NCBI GenBank assembly: GCA_022563075.1
Contig: JADFOC010000190.1
Span: 1 to 5,945, forward strand
DNA length: 5,945 nt
Direction of reading: 5' to 3'
From: Pseudomonadota bacterium
Lineage (GTDB): Bacteria > Pseudomonadota > Gammaproteobacteria > Pseudomonadales > Pseudohongiellaceae
Shown here: piece by piece, positions 2,945-5,945 of the stretch
Position numbering within the stretch: the first letter of the stretch is position 1
Layout of the letters: the number at the start of each line of letters is the position of its first letter
Notes under the pieces: model-generated
Told to the model about the DNA's origin: nothing
The model's input: the letters and a program-made list of their open reading frames with translations, nothing else
Databases searched by the model: none
Translations under genes and position numbers: made by a program

Positions 2945-3613
2945 CTAAAGTAGTGATTGTCGTGGGTTGAAGTAATGAGTGCCAGTAGGTACGGACAGAA
3001 TATAATCCACCAGCTGTTGATAGTCATCATCATTTGATACCAAATCGATTTCGGCACTATTTACGATGAGTAGGGAACTCTTGTCAAAGTAGTGGAAAAA
3101 CTCGGTGTAAGCGCTATTCAAATTTTCCAAGTAACTTAGTTGGATAAGCTGTTCAGCCTCAATGCCTCGTTTTTGAATGCGGTCCAAGAGTACATTGGTA
3201 GGAGCCTGTAGATAGATTACCAGATCTGGCGTGGGCGCATCTATGGTTAAGTGTCGATAAACATTGAGATATAAATCATATTCATCTGTATCCAGATTTT
3301 GCTGAGCGAATAACTGATCTTTGTCAATCAGGAAATCTGCTATTCGTAGCGGTGCGAACATGTCATCTTGTCTAAGTTCCTGAATTTGTTGGCTGCGCTG
3401 AAACAGAAAAAACAGCTGTGTAGACAAGGCATGCTGTCGGGGATTCTGATAAAAGCGCTCGAGAAAAGGATTGGCATCGCTATGCTCCAGTACCACCTGG
3501 TAATTGAAGGTATCCGCAAGCCGCTTAGCCAAGCTGGTTTTACCTACACCGATAGGGCCTTCTATGGCTATGAAGCGTGGTAATACTTTAGCGAAGCCAG
3601 TTGCTTGCGTCAC
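2945..3613 (-). CDS. Deoxynucleoside kinase family protein (dGK/dAK-like)
   Basis: This is a deoxynucleoside kinase of the thymidine kinase-2/dGK superfamily. It would phosphorylate a deoxynucleoside (often dA or dG in bacterial members) with ATP or another NTP, for dNTP salvage. The 222-aa product carries the P-loop GPIGVGKT at residues 19-26, EHSDANPFLERFY near residues 43-55 with the glutamate-containing substrate segment, an arginine-bearing FLFQRSQQIQEL helix, IADFLIDKD in place of the DRS-type catalytic motif region, and a LID-like DRIQKRGIEAE near residues 144-154. Translation starts at GTG (3613-3611). This overlaps the pcnB stop as GTGA, and AAAAGG lies 9 nt upstream, so the two genes are translationally coupled. 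In Pseudomonas the gene at this place is folK; some other Gammaproteobacteria have a kinase here as well. Substrate preference cannot be read from sequence alone, so I give no symbol. Confidence 0.9.
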   Translation of the reverse strand: MTQATGFAKVLPRFIAIEGPIGVGKTSLAKRLADTFNYQVVLEHSDANPFLERFYQNPRQHALSTQLFFLFQRSQQIQELRQDDMFAPLRIADFLIDKDQLFAQQNLDTDEYDLYLNVYRHLTIDAPTPDLVIYLQAPTNVLLDRIQKRGIEAEQLIQLSYLENLNSAYTEFFHYFDKSSLLIVNSAEIDLVSNDDDYQQLVDYILSVPTGTHYFNPRQSLL

Positions 3614-4968
3614 TCGGTGGTGCCTTTTGATTTGCGTTTACTACGACGCCTGCGGCGCGTTCTTGGCCTTGCCAGGGCGGTAATCAATTCCGTTCGGCGT
3701 TTTGTATCACTGTTTTGGAAGTCCGTCCACCACTGACCCAATGCGTCGAGGTTTTCTCCAGATTCTTCACGTAGCAATAGAAAATCGTAAGCTGCGCGAA
3801 ATCGCGGGTGATTGAATGCGCTCTCGATGCTGCGGCGGTTGCGCTTCTCAAAACGAAGCTGTAATTCCCAAATTTCTCGGGTGGCAGCGGTAAATCGCTT
3901 CGGTACTGCTGTGTACTTCAGCTGTGCAACTATGACTTGGTTCGCGACTTGTTGAAATAGTTGGTACGGACTGTCTAGCGAAGCTGATTCTCTTGCGATT
4001 CCTTGTCGTAGCACCGGCCAAAGTAACGCAGCAAAGAGAAAAGCAGGAGTAACCGATTTCCCCTCTGCTAATCGGAGATCTGTGTTGCGCAAGGCTAGGT
4101 CAACGAGCTTGCAAGCCGCTTCCTCAGTCTTCTCAAGCGCTTCTAAGGTGGGAGCAAATAGATATTGTCCAAGTTTGTATTCTCGTAGCAGCGCAAAAGT
4201 TCTTACCGCATACCCACCCGTGAGTAGTTTGAGAGTCTCGTCAAATAGTCGTGCTGGAGATATCGACTCGAGTAAGTGAGCAAGTTCTTTAATGGGTCGT
4301 CCGGTATTGTCCTCGATCGAAAAATCCAGCTTGGCCGAAAATCGCAGCGCTCGTAACATCCGTACCGGATCTTCCTTGTAGCGTTCCGCAGGATCGCCGA
4401 TCATTCGGATTTGCCGAGTCCGTAAGTCTTCCATGCCGGTGCAAAAGTCGAGCACCTGAAAATTATTGGTCGTGTAATAGAGTGCATTTACGGTGAAATC
4501 ACGGCGCAGGGCATCTTCATCGATGTCTCCATACACATTGTCTCGCAAAATCATACCTGCACTGGAATGGGCCGAATCTAGTCCTTGAATCTGTCTTCTG
4601 GAGACGCTGTCATCGATCTGATTCTGTGCGCCATGATGGGCGCGAAAAGTTGTGACTTCAATTATTTCCCGGCCAAACCGGATGTGCACTATCTTGAAAC
4701 GACGTCCGATGATTCGCGAGTTACGGAACAGTCTTTTAAGCTCATCCGGTGTGGCGTTGGTGGCAATGTCGAAATCTTTTGGTTTATTACCCAACAGCAA
4801 ATCACGTACGCCGCCGCCTACCAGGTAGGCATAGAACCCCTCATTACCCAGTTTATACAAAACCTTAAGAGCGCTCGGTGAGATTTGTTTGCGAGAGATT
4901 GGATGCTGGTCACGCTCAATTAATGTGGCTTTTTCAACACCAGCCAAACTTCTTCGTTCAATCATCAT
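3610..4968 (-). CDS. pcnB: Poly(A) polymerase I
   Basis: PcnB adds poly(A) tails to RNA 3' ends and so promotes RNA decay. It is a class II nucleotidyltransferase related to CCA-adding enzymes. From the ATG at 4968 the protein is 452 aa. Head-domain marks are YLVGGGVRDLLLG (from about residue 48) and KDFDIATNATPDEL, with Asp65 and Asp67 as metal ligands. RRDFTVNALYY near residues 155-165 carries a third acidic residue, and EDPVRMLRALRF lies at residues 199-210. The C-terminus is strongly basic (RPRTRRRRRSKRKSK). The tail, the length and the place next to cbrB favour poly(A) polymerase over tRNA nucleotidyltransferase. The start is uncertain: tandem ATGs lie at 4968 and 4965, an in-frame TTG lies at 5010 (466 aa), and none has a clear Shine-Dalgarno sequence; E. 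coli pcnB is known to use UUG. The gene ends inside the kinase start (GTGA overlap). Confidence 0.95.
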   Translation of the reverse strand: MMIERRSLAGVEKATLIERDQHPISRKQISPSALKVLYKLGNEGFYAYLVGGGVRDLLLGNKPKDFDIATNATPDELKRLFRNSRIIGRRFKIVHIRFGREIIEVTTFRAHHGAQNQIDDSVSRRQIQGLDSAHSSAGMILRDNVYGDIDEDALRRDFTVNALYYTTNNFQVLDFCTGMEDLRTRQIRMIGDPAERYKEDPVRMLRALRFSAKLDFSIEDNTGRPIKELAHLLESISPARLFDETLKLLTGGYAVRTFALLREYKLGQYLFAPTLEALEKTEEAACKLVDLALRNTDLRLAEGKSVTPAFLFAALLWPVLRQGIARESASLDSPYQLFQQVANQVIVAQLKYTAVPKRFTAATREIWELQLRFEKRNRRSIESAFNHPRFRAAYDFLLLREESGENLDALGQWWTDFQNSDTKRRTELITALARPRTRRRRRSKRKSKGTTE

Positions 4969-5010
4969 AAAGCAGTTCGTTGCACTGGAATTTGAGAGGC
5001 AAAGATCCAA

Positions 5011-5160
5011 CGTTGCAGCAAATCAATTATCGAATAGCACACTATTTAATTTCTTTTTTATCAGCACAGAATAGTCAAGACAACGACAGTTGGAACGGCA
5101 TAATACACCGATGCAATGAAAATTAAAGGCTGGTTGGATTTGAAGCTGCAGCGGGGAATA
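5011..5160 (-). other. pcnB leader region, no gene seen
   Basis: This stretch separates the hairpin ending the RNA locus from pcnB. I see no open frame with a plausible start here. Two weak sigma-70-like possibilities exist on the minus strand: TTGTCT, 17 nt, then TAAAAA (from about 5085), and a TATTAT at 5105-5100 without a good -35. Neither is convincing. The A-rich run AAAAAAGAAA near 5060-5051 would sit in the leader. pcnB may use a promoter here or read-through from the RNA locus. Confidence 0.4.
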
Positions 5161-5164
5161 TATT

Positions 5165-5185
5165 GGGGGGTGAAATCCACCCCCC
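5165..5185 (-). terminator. GC-rich hairpin ending the CrcZ-like RNA
   Basis: An 8-bp perfect stem, GGGGGGTG with CACCCCCC, closes a 5-nt loop (GATTT on the minus strand). It follows the last A-rich cluster by about 10 nt. The 3' flank is AATATATT rather than a clean U-run, so termination may be partial, leaving read-through into pcnB. It could also act as a 3' stability cap or processing barrier. Confidence 0.6.
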
Positions 5186-5193
5186 CGAGGAAG

Positions 5194-5430
5194 TTAATAG
5201 TTATTATTATTGCTATTGTTTATTTGCCTATTGTTTTTATTAAACTGTGAGCCATAAATGGCACCACATAAGCAATAGGTGGTATATCTGCGGCACGGTG
5301 ACAAGTCTGTCACTGATTGGCCACAAACCCGACCTTATTATTATTGAACGCACTAACCTTAGTTGTATAACTCAGTAATGCTATTTTTGTTTTTATTTAG
5401 GCTTATTATTATAATTTATTATTATTATTA
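5194..5430 (-). repeat. Five A-rich AAU/ANR triplet clusters
   Basis: On the minus strand the clusters are, in transcript order: a run of AAU triplets interrupted once (5430-5403); AAATAAAAACAAAAAT (5398-5383); CAATAATAATAA (5346-5335); AATAAAAACAATA within 5243-5230; and a long one containing AAACAATAGCAATAATAATAA's triplet run (5225-5194). Triplets of the A-R-N form are what the distal face of Hfq binds. The last two clusters share an imperfect direct repeat built on AACAATAG. The triplets are dispersed and separated by hairpins, so this does not look like a simple microsatellite. Confidence 0.75.
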
Positions 5431-5440
5431 ATGTATATAG

Positions 5441-5456
5441 TGCATTTATTGTGCCA
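5441..5456 (-). promoter_or_regulatory. Sigma-54 (-24/-12) promoter of the CrcZ-like RNA
   Basis: The minus strand reads TGGCACAATAAATGCA. The GG at 5455-5454 and GC at 5443-5442 are separated by 10 nt, exactly as in the sigma-54 consensus TGGCAC-N5-TTGCW; only one -12 base departs from it (A for T). The start point would be near 5430, placing the first A-rich cluster at the 5' end of the RNA. A sigma-54 activator, CbrB, is encoded just upstream. Confidence 0.82.
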
Positions 5457-5475
5457 ATACTTGAATTGTTATATT

Positions 5476-5488
5476 TATCAAATAGTTA
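5476..5488 (+). promoter_or_regulatory. IHF binding site between enhancer and sigma-54 promoter
   Basis: TATCAAATAGTTA matches the IHF core WATCAANNNNTTR at every defined position. It lies at about -46 to -58 from the predicted start, between the promoter and the upstream half-sites, in AT-rich DNA. This is the usual place for IHF to bend DNA so that an enhancer-bound activator touches sigma-54 polymerase. Confidence 0.55.
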
Positions 5489-5508
5489 ATTTTCCCTAGA
5501 CTAGTCTT

Positions 5509-5576
5509 TGCTACCTTGACAGCTCTTATTTGTTACAATAATGCACTAATATTTGAGTAGAATGGTAGCGGTAACA
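5509..5576. promoter_or_regulatory. Candidate CbrB upstream activating sequence
   Basis: TGTTAC at 5531-5536 and its exact inverse GTAACA at 5571-5576 flank 34 nt. A related TGCTAC lies at 5509-5514, and GTAGCG at 5565-5570 abuts GTAACA. From memory, Pseudomonas CbrB sites at crcZ are built from TGTTAC/GTAACA half-sites, although with a shorter separation. The array lies about 80-146 nt upstream of the predicted start, a normal enhancer distance. Confidence 0.5.
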
Positions 5577-5603
5577 AAAACCAGCGGCGATCACAGTGAC
5601 GCC
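5576..5603 (-). terminator. Candidate intrinsic terminator of cbrB
   Basis: On the minus strand GGCG-TCA-CTG-TGA-T-CGCC can fold into a seven-pair stem with one bulged base, followed after GCTGG by TTTTT. It lies about 75 nt after the cbrB stop and just before the half-site array. The 5-nt gap before the U-run and the bulge make it a moderate candidate. Confidence 0.4.
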
Positions 5604-5677
5604 AAAAAGTCGTATAAACAATCGCTTTGCGGGTCTTTAATCGAAGAATAATTGATAGAAGAGCTATGCATGAGTGA

Positions 5678-5945
5678 TCAGGTTGACCGTTTCTTCTTGC
5701 GGGGTATGCCAAAGCGCTGTCGACGTTCCCAAAGGCATTTGCGACTGATGCCCAATTTCTTGGCAAGCTGGGTTTCGTTCATGGAATCCTGATGTTCAAT
5801 CACAAAGCGTTGGAAATAGTCTTCTAAAGACAACTCTTCTACTGGCTCCGCAGGAACGTGGACAACCGGAGAGCGAAATCCGATCGAATTCAACGGAATA
5901 GCCGGATCGTCTATGGCCAGCAATTCTTCGCTAATAATGTTAGAT
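5678..5945 (-). CDS. cbrB: CbrB-type sigma-54 response regulator, C-terminal end (cut by window edge)
   Basis: The last 88 codons of an NtrC-family response regulator are present; receiver and AAA+ domains lie beyond the right edge. The visible part begins in the linker after the AAA+ core (SNIISEELLAIDDP) and ends in a Fis-type HTH: LEDYFQRFVIEHQDSMNETQ, then LAKKLGISRKCLWERRQRF and a basic end GIPRKKKRST. This tail closely resembles Pseudomonas CbrB as I remember it, and pcnB downstream gives the same synteny. CbrB, with the sensor kinase CbrA, governs carbon/nitrogen balance by activating sigma-54 promoters, above all crcZ. The frame is open to the edge; an in-frame TTG at 5923 is internal and not a start. 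Family level is secure; CbrB rather than another NtrC-like regulator rests on tail similarity, neighbours and the sigma-54 promoter just downstream. Confidence 0.88.
   Translation of the reverse strand, partial: SNIISEELLAIDDPAIPLNSIGFRSPVVHVPAEPVEELSLEDYFQRFVIEHQDSMNETQLAKKLGISRKCLWERRQRFGIPRKKKRST

Follow-up and report, generated by a model that had tools for sequence, protein, structure and literature searches.

The closest described system is CrcZ of Pseudomonas, an RNA that relieves repression by occupying Hfq. According to the available text of PMC4063720, CrcZ of P. aeruginosa binds Hfq at its distal face, releasing A-rich ribosome-binding sites, and in E. coli Hfq is said to be both necessary and sufficient to repress amiE. 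The same text has a heading on the "elusive function of Crc", and the question of how Crc contributes beyond Hfq is an old one. The crcZ gene is activated by CbrB from a sigma-54 promoter with IHF, as stated in the accessible part of PMC6296734. CbrAB has been called exclusive to Pseudomonadaceae or Pseudomonads in the portions seen of PMC8871633 and PMC6296734, and cbrAB-crcZ synteny likewise in that of PMC8871633. Then, could a CbrB-driven RNA of this type occur in another family of the order? A first-pass annotation of the locus described below had proposed a diverged CrcZ counterpart between cbrB and pcnB. This reading is supported here by the position, the promoter, the CbrB subsites, the motif clusters and wide conservation.

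Gene neighbourhood and predicted features

The window, that is, the whole stretch of DNA analysed, is the complete 5945-nt contig C57 of genome G000, which is 74% complete and consists of 531 contigs; therefore, absences in G000 were judged from its relatives. By PcnB, its closest named relatives are gammaproteobacteria assembled from metagenomes, and G000 is likely to be of this kind as well. The minus strand carries, besides pcnB and the 88 C-terminal residues of CbrB, an acs fragment, panC, panB and a dTMP-kinase-like gene. This CbrB end is below threshold for Pfam HTH_8 (18.1 bits vs 22), and full CbrB is seen at loci L031 and L045. The cbrB-pcnB gap, 5011-5677, measures 667 nt from ORF end to ORF end as listed. 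It had been described as free of genes, which agrees with our analysis: the longest ORFs overlapping the predicted RNA have 39 aa on the same strand and 44 aa on the opposite strand, and a coding gene inside the gap is ruled out by such small ORFs and by the many indels in the genus alignment. The predicted RNA gene lies directly downstream of cbrB, the position that crcZ occupies. The features are as follows.

5678..5944, minus strand: CbrB C-terminal 88 aa, Fis-type DNA-binding end, truncated by the contig end
5571..5576, minus strand: predicted CbrB subsite F (TGTTAC), with the -24 element 120 nt downstream; motif per PMC6296734 (seen in part)
5531..5536, minus strand: predicted CbrB subsite R (GTAACA), with the -24 element 80 nt downstream; motif from the same partial text, PMC6296734
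5476..5488, plus strand: predicted IHF site TATCAAATAGTTA, a consensus match, perfect to WATCAANNNNTTR
5442..5456, minus strand: predicted sigma-54 promoter TGGCACAATAAATGC, a consensus match
5163..5430, minus strand: predicted CrcZ-like RNA, about 268 nt, with a predicted start near 5430
5416..5429, minus strand: A-rich run 1, AATAATAATAATAA
5403..5410, minus strand: A-rich run 2, AATAATAA
5384..5397, minus strand: A-rich run 3, AATAAAAACAAAAA
5350..5381, minus strand: hairpin block GCATTACTGAGTT...GGTTAGTGC, kept in most of the genus
5335..5345, minus strand: A-rich run 4, AATAATAATAA
5231..5241, minus strand: A-rich run 5, AATAAAAACAA
5201..5211, minus strand: A-rich run 6, AATAATAATAA
5165..5185, minus strand: 3' GC hairpin, likely RNA end
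3610..5010, minus strand: pcnB, the neighbour downstream; TTG start per the ORF list, the true start may be further in

The sigma-54 promoter claimed for the gap was recovered as a sequence match, TGGCACAATAAATGC, at 5456-5442 of the minus strand. It was assigned with the sigma-54 consensus, and the IHF site with the consensus WATCAANNNNTTR. A GG-N10-GC promoter pattern is also given in the available text of PMC6296734. Judged by sequence only, the arrangement of CrcZ, a sigma-54 promoter with CbrB subsites upstream, is present here, and it recurs widely. Among 66 loci that bear the RNA architecture, 65 had enough sequence upstream for a survey of the subsites, and both subsites lie within 220 nt upstream in 59 of these 65 against 0.68 expected from shuffles (subsite F in 60 vs 3.7 expected, subsite R in 64 vs 13.4). 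The phasing is regular in 16/16 loci of the genus, with F between -117 and -121 and R between -77 and -81, and the geometry is similar in family f21 (five loci of four genomes), where F is at -123 or -124 and an R between -80 and -88. An IHF-like site with no more than one mismatch occurs in 36/65 loci, compared with 11.2 expected from base shuffles.

A-rich runs and predicted fold

The A-rich clusters noted in the first-pass annotation are present, although we count six AANAANAA runs instead of five. Overlapping matches to AANAANAA number 14 in the gap against 1.37 expected, and none of 2000 dinucleotide shuffles reaches this count, which rules out chance A-richness of the gap. The longest run is equalled in length by 33 of the 2000 shuffles, and the opposite strand is unremarkable, with two matches vs 0.56 expected (240/2000 shuffles). 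The predicted fold of the 273-nt strand has -67.6 kcal/mol (z = -3.68), and one of 200 shuffles is equally stable. Hairpins between the clusters and a terminal GC hairpin had also been proposed, and both are found, as the block at 5381-5350 and the GC hairpin at 5185-5165; run 4 is partly paired in the predicted minimum fold. Consequently, the six runs, their excess over shuffles and the predicted fold together give several A-rich motifs between hairpins, as in CrcZ. The block at 5350-5381 varies less across the genus than the spacers do. A block of this kind, which contains ACUGA and is not A-rich, is seen again in the RNA of Marinobacter and of most of the genus.

All 20 sequences in the comparison, that of the window among them, have the 3' hairpin with at least seven pairs, and both arms of its stem show substitutions. 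Its covariation score is 0.292 vs 0.194 in shuffles, and 85.6% of the alignment cells pair; none of 500 shuffles reaches either value. However, 61/500 shuffles reach as many pairs with paired changes and 237/500 as many pair types, and sliding the alignment by +1 column still gives 0.256, close to 0.292, so that the covariation signal is modest. The sequence right after the hairpin is AATATATTCCCC instead of a clean T-run; therefore, termination at this position is a prediction.

Similarity to the Rfam CrcZ model

A covariance-model search of the interval had been suggested as a check, and it gave a partial answer: RF01675 matches the window at 5434-5132 with 21.8 bits and E 0.0085, below the gathering score of 95. 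When all of genome G000 was searched, no match of RF01675 reached E 0.001. A scan of 194 genomes of the order, in which stricter filters lose weak matches, found 41 genomes at E 0.001 or better, of which nine pass the gathering score (six of f21, three of f2), and at E 0.001 it gave no match in G000, G120 and G172 of the window's genus. Family f21 alone gives 307-368 bits to the Pseudomonas model and is therefore likely to be Pseudomonadaceae. For the sister genus g15, which belongs to the window's family, four genomes match with E 4e-9 to 1.8e-7 and show the full architecture. Five loci from the named genome collection were scanned as well: those of Hahella and Marinobacter score about 50 bits (E about 5e-10), that of Zhongshania has E 0.057, and those of Neptunomonas and Marinobacterium give no match at E 0.5. 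The expectation that an ordinary search would miss such an RNA needs correction: the model gives a weak match in the window and much better ones in g15, so that the RNA is not wholly missed. Based on place, promoter and graded similarity, the predicted RNA of the window is likely homologous to CrcZ, and we do not file this copy as a member of RF01675.

Second RF01675 matches away from the first were seen in G181 (C122 and C144), G031 (C113, locus L301), G037 (C160) and G153. Such second matches, in f21, f8 and f14, are what CrcY/CrcX-like copies would give; those of f8 and f14 are weak, below 29 bits.

Conservation in the genus and the order

A model of the RNA, R1, with rows from 15 of the 19 positive genomes and four rows from named relatives, was searched in 25 genomes of the genus (the window's included). 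It matches at the cbrB/pcnB locus in 19 of them, among which G001, G004, G020 and G024 were unused in the model; in G004 and G020 the match is at a contig end behind cbrB. The six negative genomes are G005, G007 and G015, where pcnB is missing or cut, and G018, G021 and G022, where cbrB abuts pcnB (loci L021, L020 and L018, respectively) and no space for the RNA is left. The latter three retain cbrB, hfq and the CbrA kinase, which in G021 is cut by the contig end, and the CrcZ-like RNA is therefore dispensable in them. The two R1 matches of G020 were considered as a second RNA copy and rejected: each sits at the end of a different contig, the first following cbrB and the second preceding pcnB, and one broken locus is consequently the simplest reading. 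The search of 13 genomes of other families with R1 gave no match, so that sequence alone does not carry beyond the genus.

The architecture does. A sigma-54-type site followed by A-rich motifs was found in 24 of the 30 loci of a first set. The exceptions are L007, which is cut, L012 and L023, which have 12 and 13 A-rich matches and no promoter match, and the three loci without RNA mentioned above. With PcnB as anchor, the best 80 loci were then taken from the named genome collection. A cbrB end lies no more than 1.9 kb upstream of pcnB in 44 of these 80, and 41 of the 44 carry the promoter and A-rich motifs, while the other three still have 9 to 17 A-rich matches. No CbrB end is in view at 36 of the best 80 loci. 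Among these, 33 have full flanks (Colwellia, Vibrio, Photobacterium and others, and one Endozoicomonas) and none shows the architecture; the contig-cut ones are L042, L043 and L071, with the architecture in L043. The 41 loci with the architecture among the best 80 comprise 26 of Marinobacter, and the rest include Hahella, Mangrovitalea, Neptunomonas, Marinobacterium, Zhongshania and further lineages. Since it is found at 41/44 loci with cbrB vs 0/33 without, a predicted CbrB-linked CrcZ-like RNA runs through the order.

The comparison of cbrB-pcnB gaps among relatives thus bears out the retention of the A-rich architecture, in 19/25 genomes of the genus and 41/44 of the cbrB-linked loci among the best 80, whereas the idea that this locus is exceptional outside Pseudomonas fails, as the same interval occurs in many other families of the order. 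Judged by synteny and sequence divergence, recent transfer from Pseudomonas is not favoured: the RNA goes with the cbrB-pcnB gene order in many families and has diverged in sequence. The CrcZ-like RNA may be present in tandem copies in some families, as L024 (G029) and L303 (G144) have two units, of promoter or A-rich/hairpin type, close to pcnB or cbrB.

CbrA and Hfq

The CbrA homologue of G000 is full-length, a 994-aa frame on contig C88, not the contig of cbrB, with 78% identity to that of a relative. Among 18 loci of the genus that were read, CbrA beside cbrB is full-length in 14, cut or masked in three, and absent in one (G019). At L031 (2737-3849) and L032, the kinase upstream of cbrB has about 370 aa and no SLC5 transporter part; as only these two show it, a transporter-less CbrA is ruled out as a genus-wide trait. 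The search for a CbrA kinase next to cbrB was negative in L037, L038, L229 (G019) and L225 (G036), and a gluQ-like frame is next upstream of cbrB in L037, L038 and G019. Hfq was found in 36 of the 38 genomes searched. That of G000, on C509, keeps the distal-face residues Y25, G29, I30, K31 and Q33. Y25 and the A-R-N pockets are also mentioned in the available text of PMC4063720.

Search for Crc

Profile A1, which consists of three pyrE-linked proteins, one of them with the Crc structure 4jg3 as best match, was searched in 38 genomes (the window's included) and matched in 35; G019, G021 and G026 are without a match, G026 being the only f3 genome and 75% complete. A tree of 35 homologues shows a 100/100 split. 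On one side are 12 proteins of 12 other-family genomes, one per genome, whose active sites are degenerate, and on the other are 20 proteins of the window's genus and three second copies from other families, with intact sites; left out of this 35-row tree were G004 (masked stretch), G005 and G010 (fragments), the second match of G018 (196 bits) and everything below 100 bits. In a tree extended to 70 rows with named and further genomes, the Crc clade holds 26 rows at 100/100, none of which comes from the window's family. This clade includes every other family with a match above 230 bits, with Marinobacter, Hahella, Neptunomonas, Marinobacterium, Zhongshania and f21 inside; pyrE lies within the flanking sequence fetched for 24 rows, with G025 and L063b as the two exceptions, and the lowest score seen in the clade is 270 bits (G032). 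Deeper placements in these trees are partly tentative.

The search was also carried out on 94 genomes of the window's family, all but G000 at least 90% complete. Matches were found in 90 of them, and every match above 230 bits is of the NApe AP-endonuclease type with an intact active site; 48 of these were newly fetched, all nearest to NApe, and the others were classified in the trees. Matches below 200 bits look like a separate Xth-type group, of which ten rows were placed in the tree, and genera g98, g99 and g103 have only low matches of this kind. By their matching coordinates, L048 belongs to g98, L034 and L035 to g102, and L037 and L038 to g103. Since L034, L035, L037 and L048 show the architecture, several Crc-less genera carry the predicted RNA. 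At the pyrE of the family, no crc was found in the 5 of 15 fetched loci that were read by eye, where pyrE is flanked by an rph-like and an slmA-like frame. The ExoIII-like protein of G000 (P0001) falls in the NApe clade, with QET, GDWN and SDHAP intact and no pyrE beside its gene, and does not qualify as Crc. With no Crc-clade protein found in the family, the Hfq/Crc pair proposed in the first-pass annotation is an unlikely target, and joint action on Hfq and Crc, as described for CrcZ, is not indicated here; Hfq alone is therefore the likely target. A PcnB tree does not resolve its deep nodes, and the family may either have lost Crc or never have gained it.

Proposed mechanism and alternatives

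We propose, with a probability of about 0.7, that the interval encodes a CrcZ-type RNA that would be driven by CbrB and sigma-54 and would titrate Hfq without Crc. When good carbon sources run short, CbrAB and sigma-54 would switch the RNA on; it would be made from about 5430 to 5163, its A-rich runs may bind the distal face of Hfq, and this titration would free the A-rich ribosome-binding sites of catabolic mRNAs. The chain from CbrAB through sigma-54 and the RNA to Hfq is proposed because the known CrcZ parts are all present except Crc, and each of its functional steps is put forward conditionally. For a wider reading we would give even odds: that the whole family has CrcZ-type carbon control without Crc, with Hfq alone as the target of the RNA, either because a pre-Crc state was kept or because Crc was discarded and the decoy kept. 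CbrAB-CrcZ would then be ancestral and order-wide, not an invention of Pseudomonas.

An unlikely alternative is that the CrcZ homologue acts on a complex of Hfq with a protein, the NApe-type AP-endonuclease of the family moonlighting as a stand-in for Crc. NApe is indeed close to Crc: P0001 scores 273 bits to 4jg3, behind 2jc5 with 305 and its variant 4b5h with 303, and an RKRR patch, found in 18/26 Crc rows, and a PK-type patch, found in 26/26, each occur in 8 of the 29 NApe rows of the family. However, the three nuclease active-site motifs are kept in 29/29 of these rows vs 0/26 Crc rows, the protein of G000 is itself without RKRR, NApe and Crc are separated at 100/100 in the trees, and no pyrE was seen beside the NApe genes of the family.

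We consider it improbable that the molecule is a CbrB-driven sRNA that mainly base-pairs, for example via the conserved GCAUUACUGAGUU block, with the A-rich runs only holding Hfq. That block is better kept in the genus than the spacers, and its ACTGA core is found in 46 of 66 predicted RNAs vs 18 expected from base shuffles, though these occurrences are not independent, because 26 of the 46 are from Marinobacter. Against a leading role for it, the GCATTACTGAG block is absent at the four g15 loci and ACTGA is lacking in 20 of the 66 loci, while the A-rich runs and the promoter are kept. It is very improbable that the interval is merely a long pcnB leader or cbrB 3' end whose A-rich sequence is kept for composition. 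The gap is AT-rich, as that account expects, and read-through from cbrB into crcZ is reported for P. putida and A. vinelandii in the available text of PMC8871633 and PMC6292655; but it leaves aside the sigma-54-type promoter of the RNA's own with phased CbrB subsites in 59/65 loci, the hairpin with paired changes ahead of pcnB, and a motif excess confined to one strand. The CrcZ-type RNA acting on Hfq remains our preferred reading.

Comparison with known systems

In the open-licence literature, CrcZ and Marinobacter were not found named together, CbrB and Marinobacter are co-mentioned only in a mesopelagic-community paper (seen in part), and among the matches listed no title or abstract start has crcZ in the other genera named here. 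Accordingly, neither the order-wide cbrB-linked RNA family nor its presence in a Crc-less family was found in print in that literature. CrcZ-like behaviour outside Pseudomonas is not wholly new, because sRNA99 has been noted in Acinetobacter (available text of PMC12802169). The sRNA99 of A. baumannii, reminiscent of CrcZ in RIL-seq, has three potential A-rich AAN motifs; the same partial text (PMC12802169), on whose description the comparison is based, gives it no link to cbrB or a sigma-54 promoter, unlike the RNA of the window.

Like CrcZ (RF01675; Pseudomonas, Azotobacter), the predicted RNA is located downstream of cbrB, with a sigma-54 promoter and similarly spaced CbrB subsites, and has several A-rich Hfq motifs and a 3' hairpin; CrcZ of P. 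aeruginosa has six A-rich stretches (PMC4063720, in part). Unlike CrcZ, it has about 268 nt vs 398 model positions, scores 21.8 bits vs the gathering score of 95, and belongs to a family in which no Crc was found. CrcY and CrcX of Pseudomonas are CbrB-driven decoys of the same kind (available text of PMC8871633), but they are extra to CrcZ, whereas R1 finds a single locus in G000. The Hfq-only repression of amiE in E. coli (PMC4063720, in part) is similar in logic, as Hfq needs no partner there to act on an A-rich target and is titrated by CrcZ; that set-up is heterologous, whereas the present case concerns an entire natural family in which no Crc was found. Such a family, having CbrAB, the predicted decoy and Hfq, and a subclade of it also without the RNA form a natural deletion series, which would make the question of Crc testable. 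Since the module occurs in many other families of the order, the carbon control of Pseudomonas looks like a branch of something older, the greater part of which scores below the Rfam threshold.
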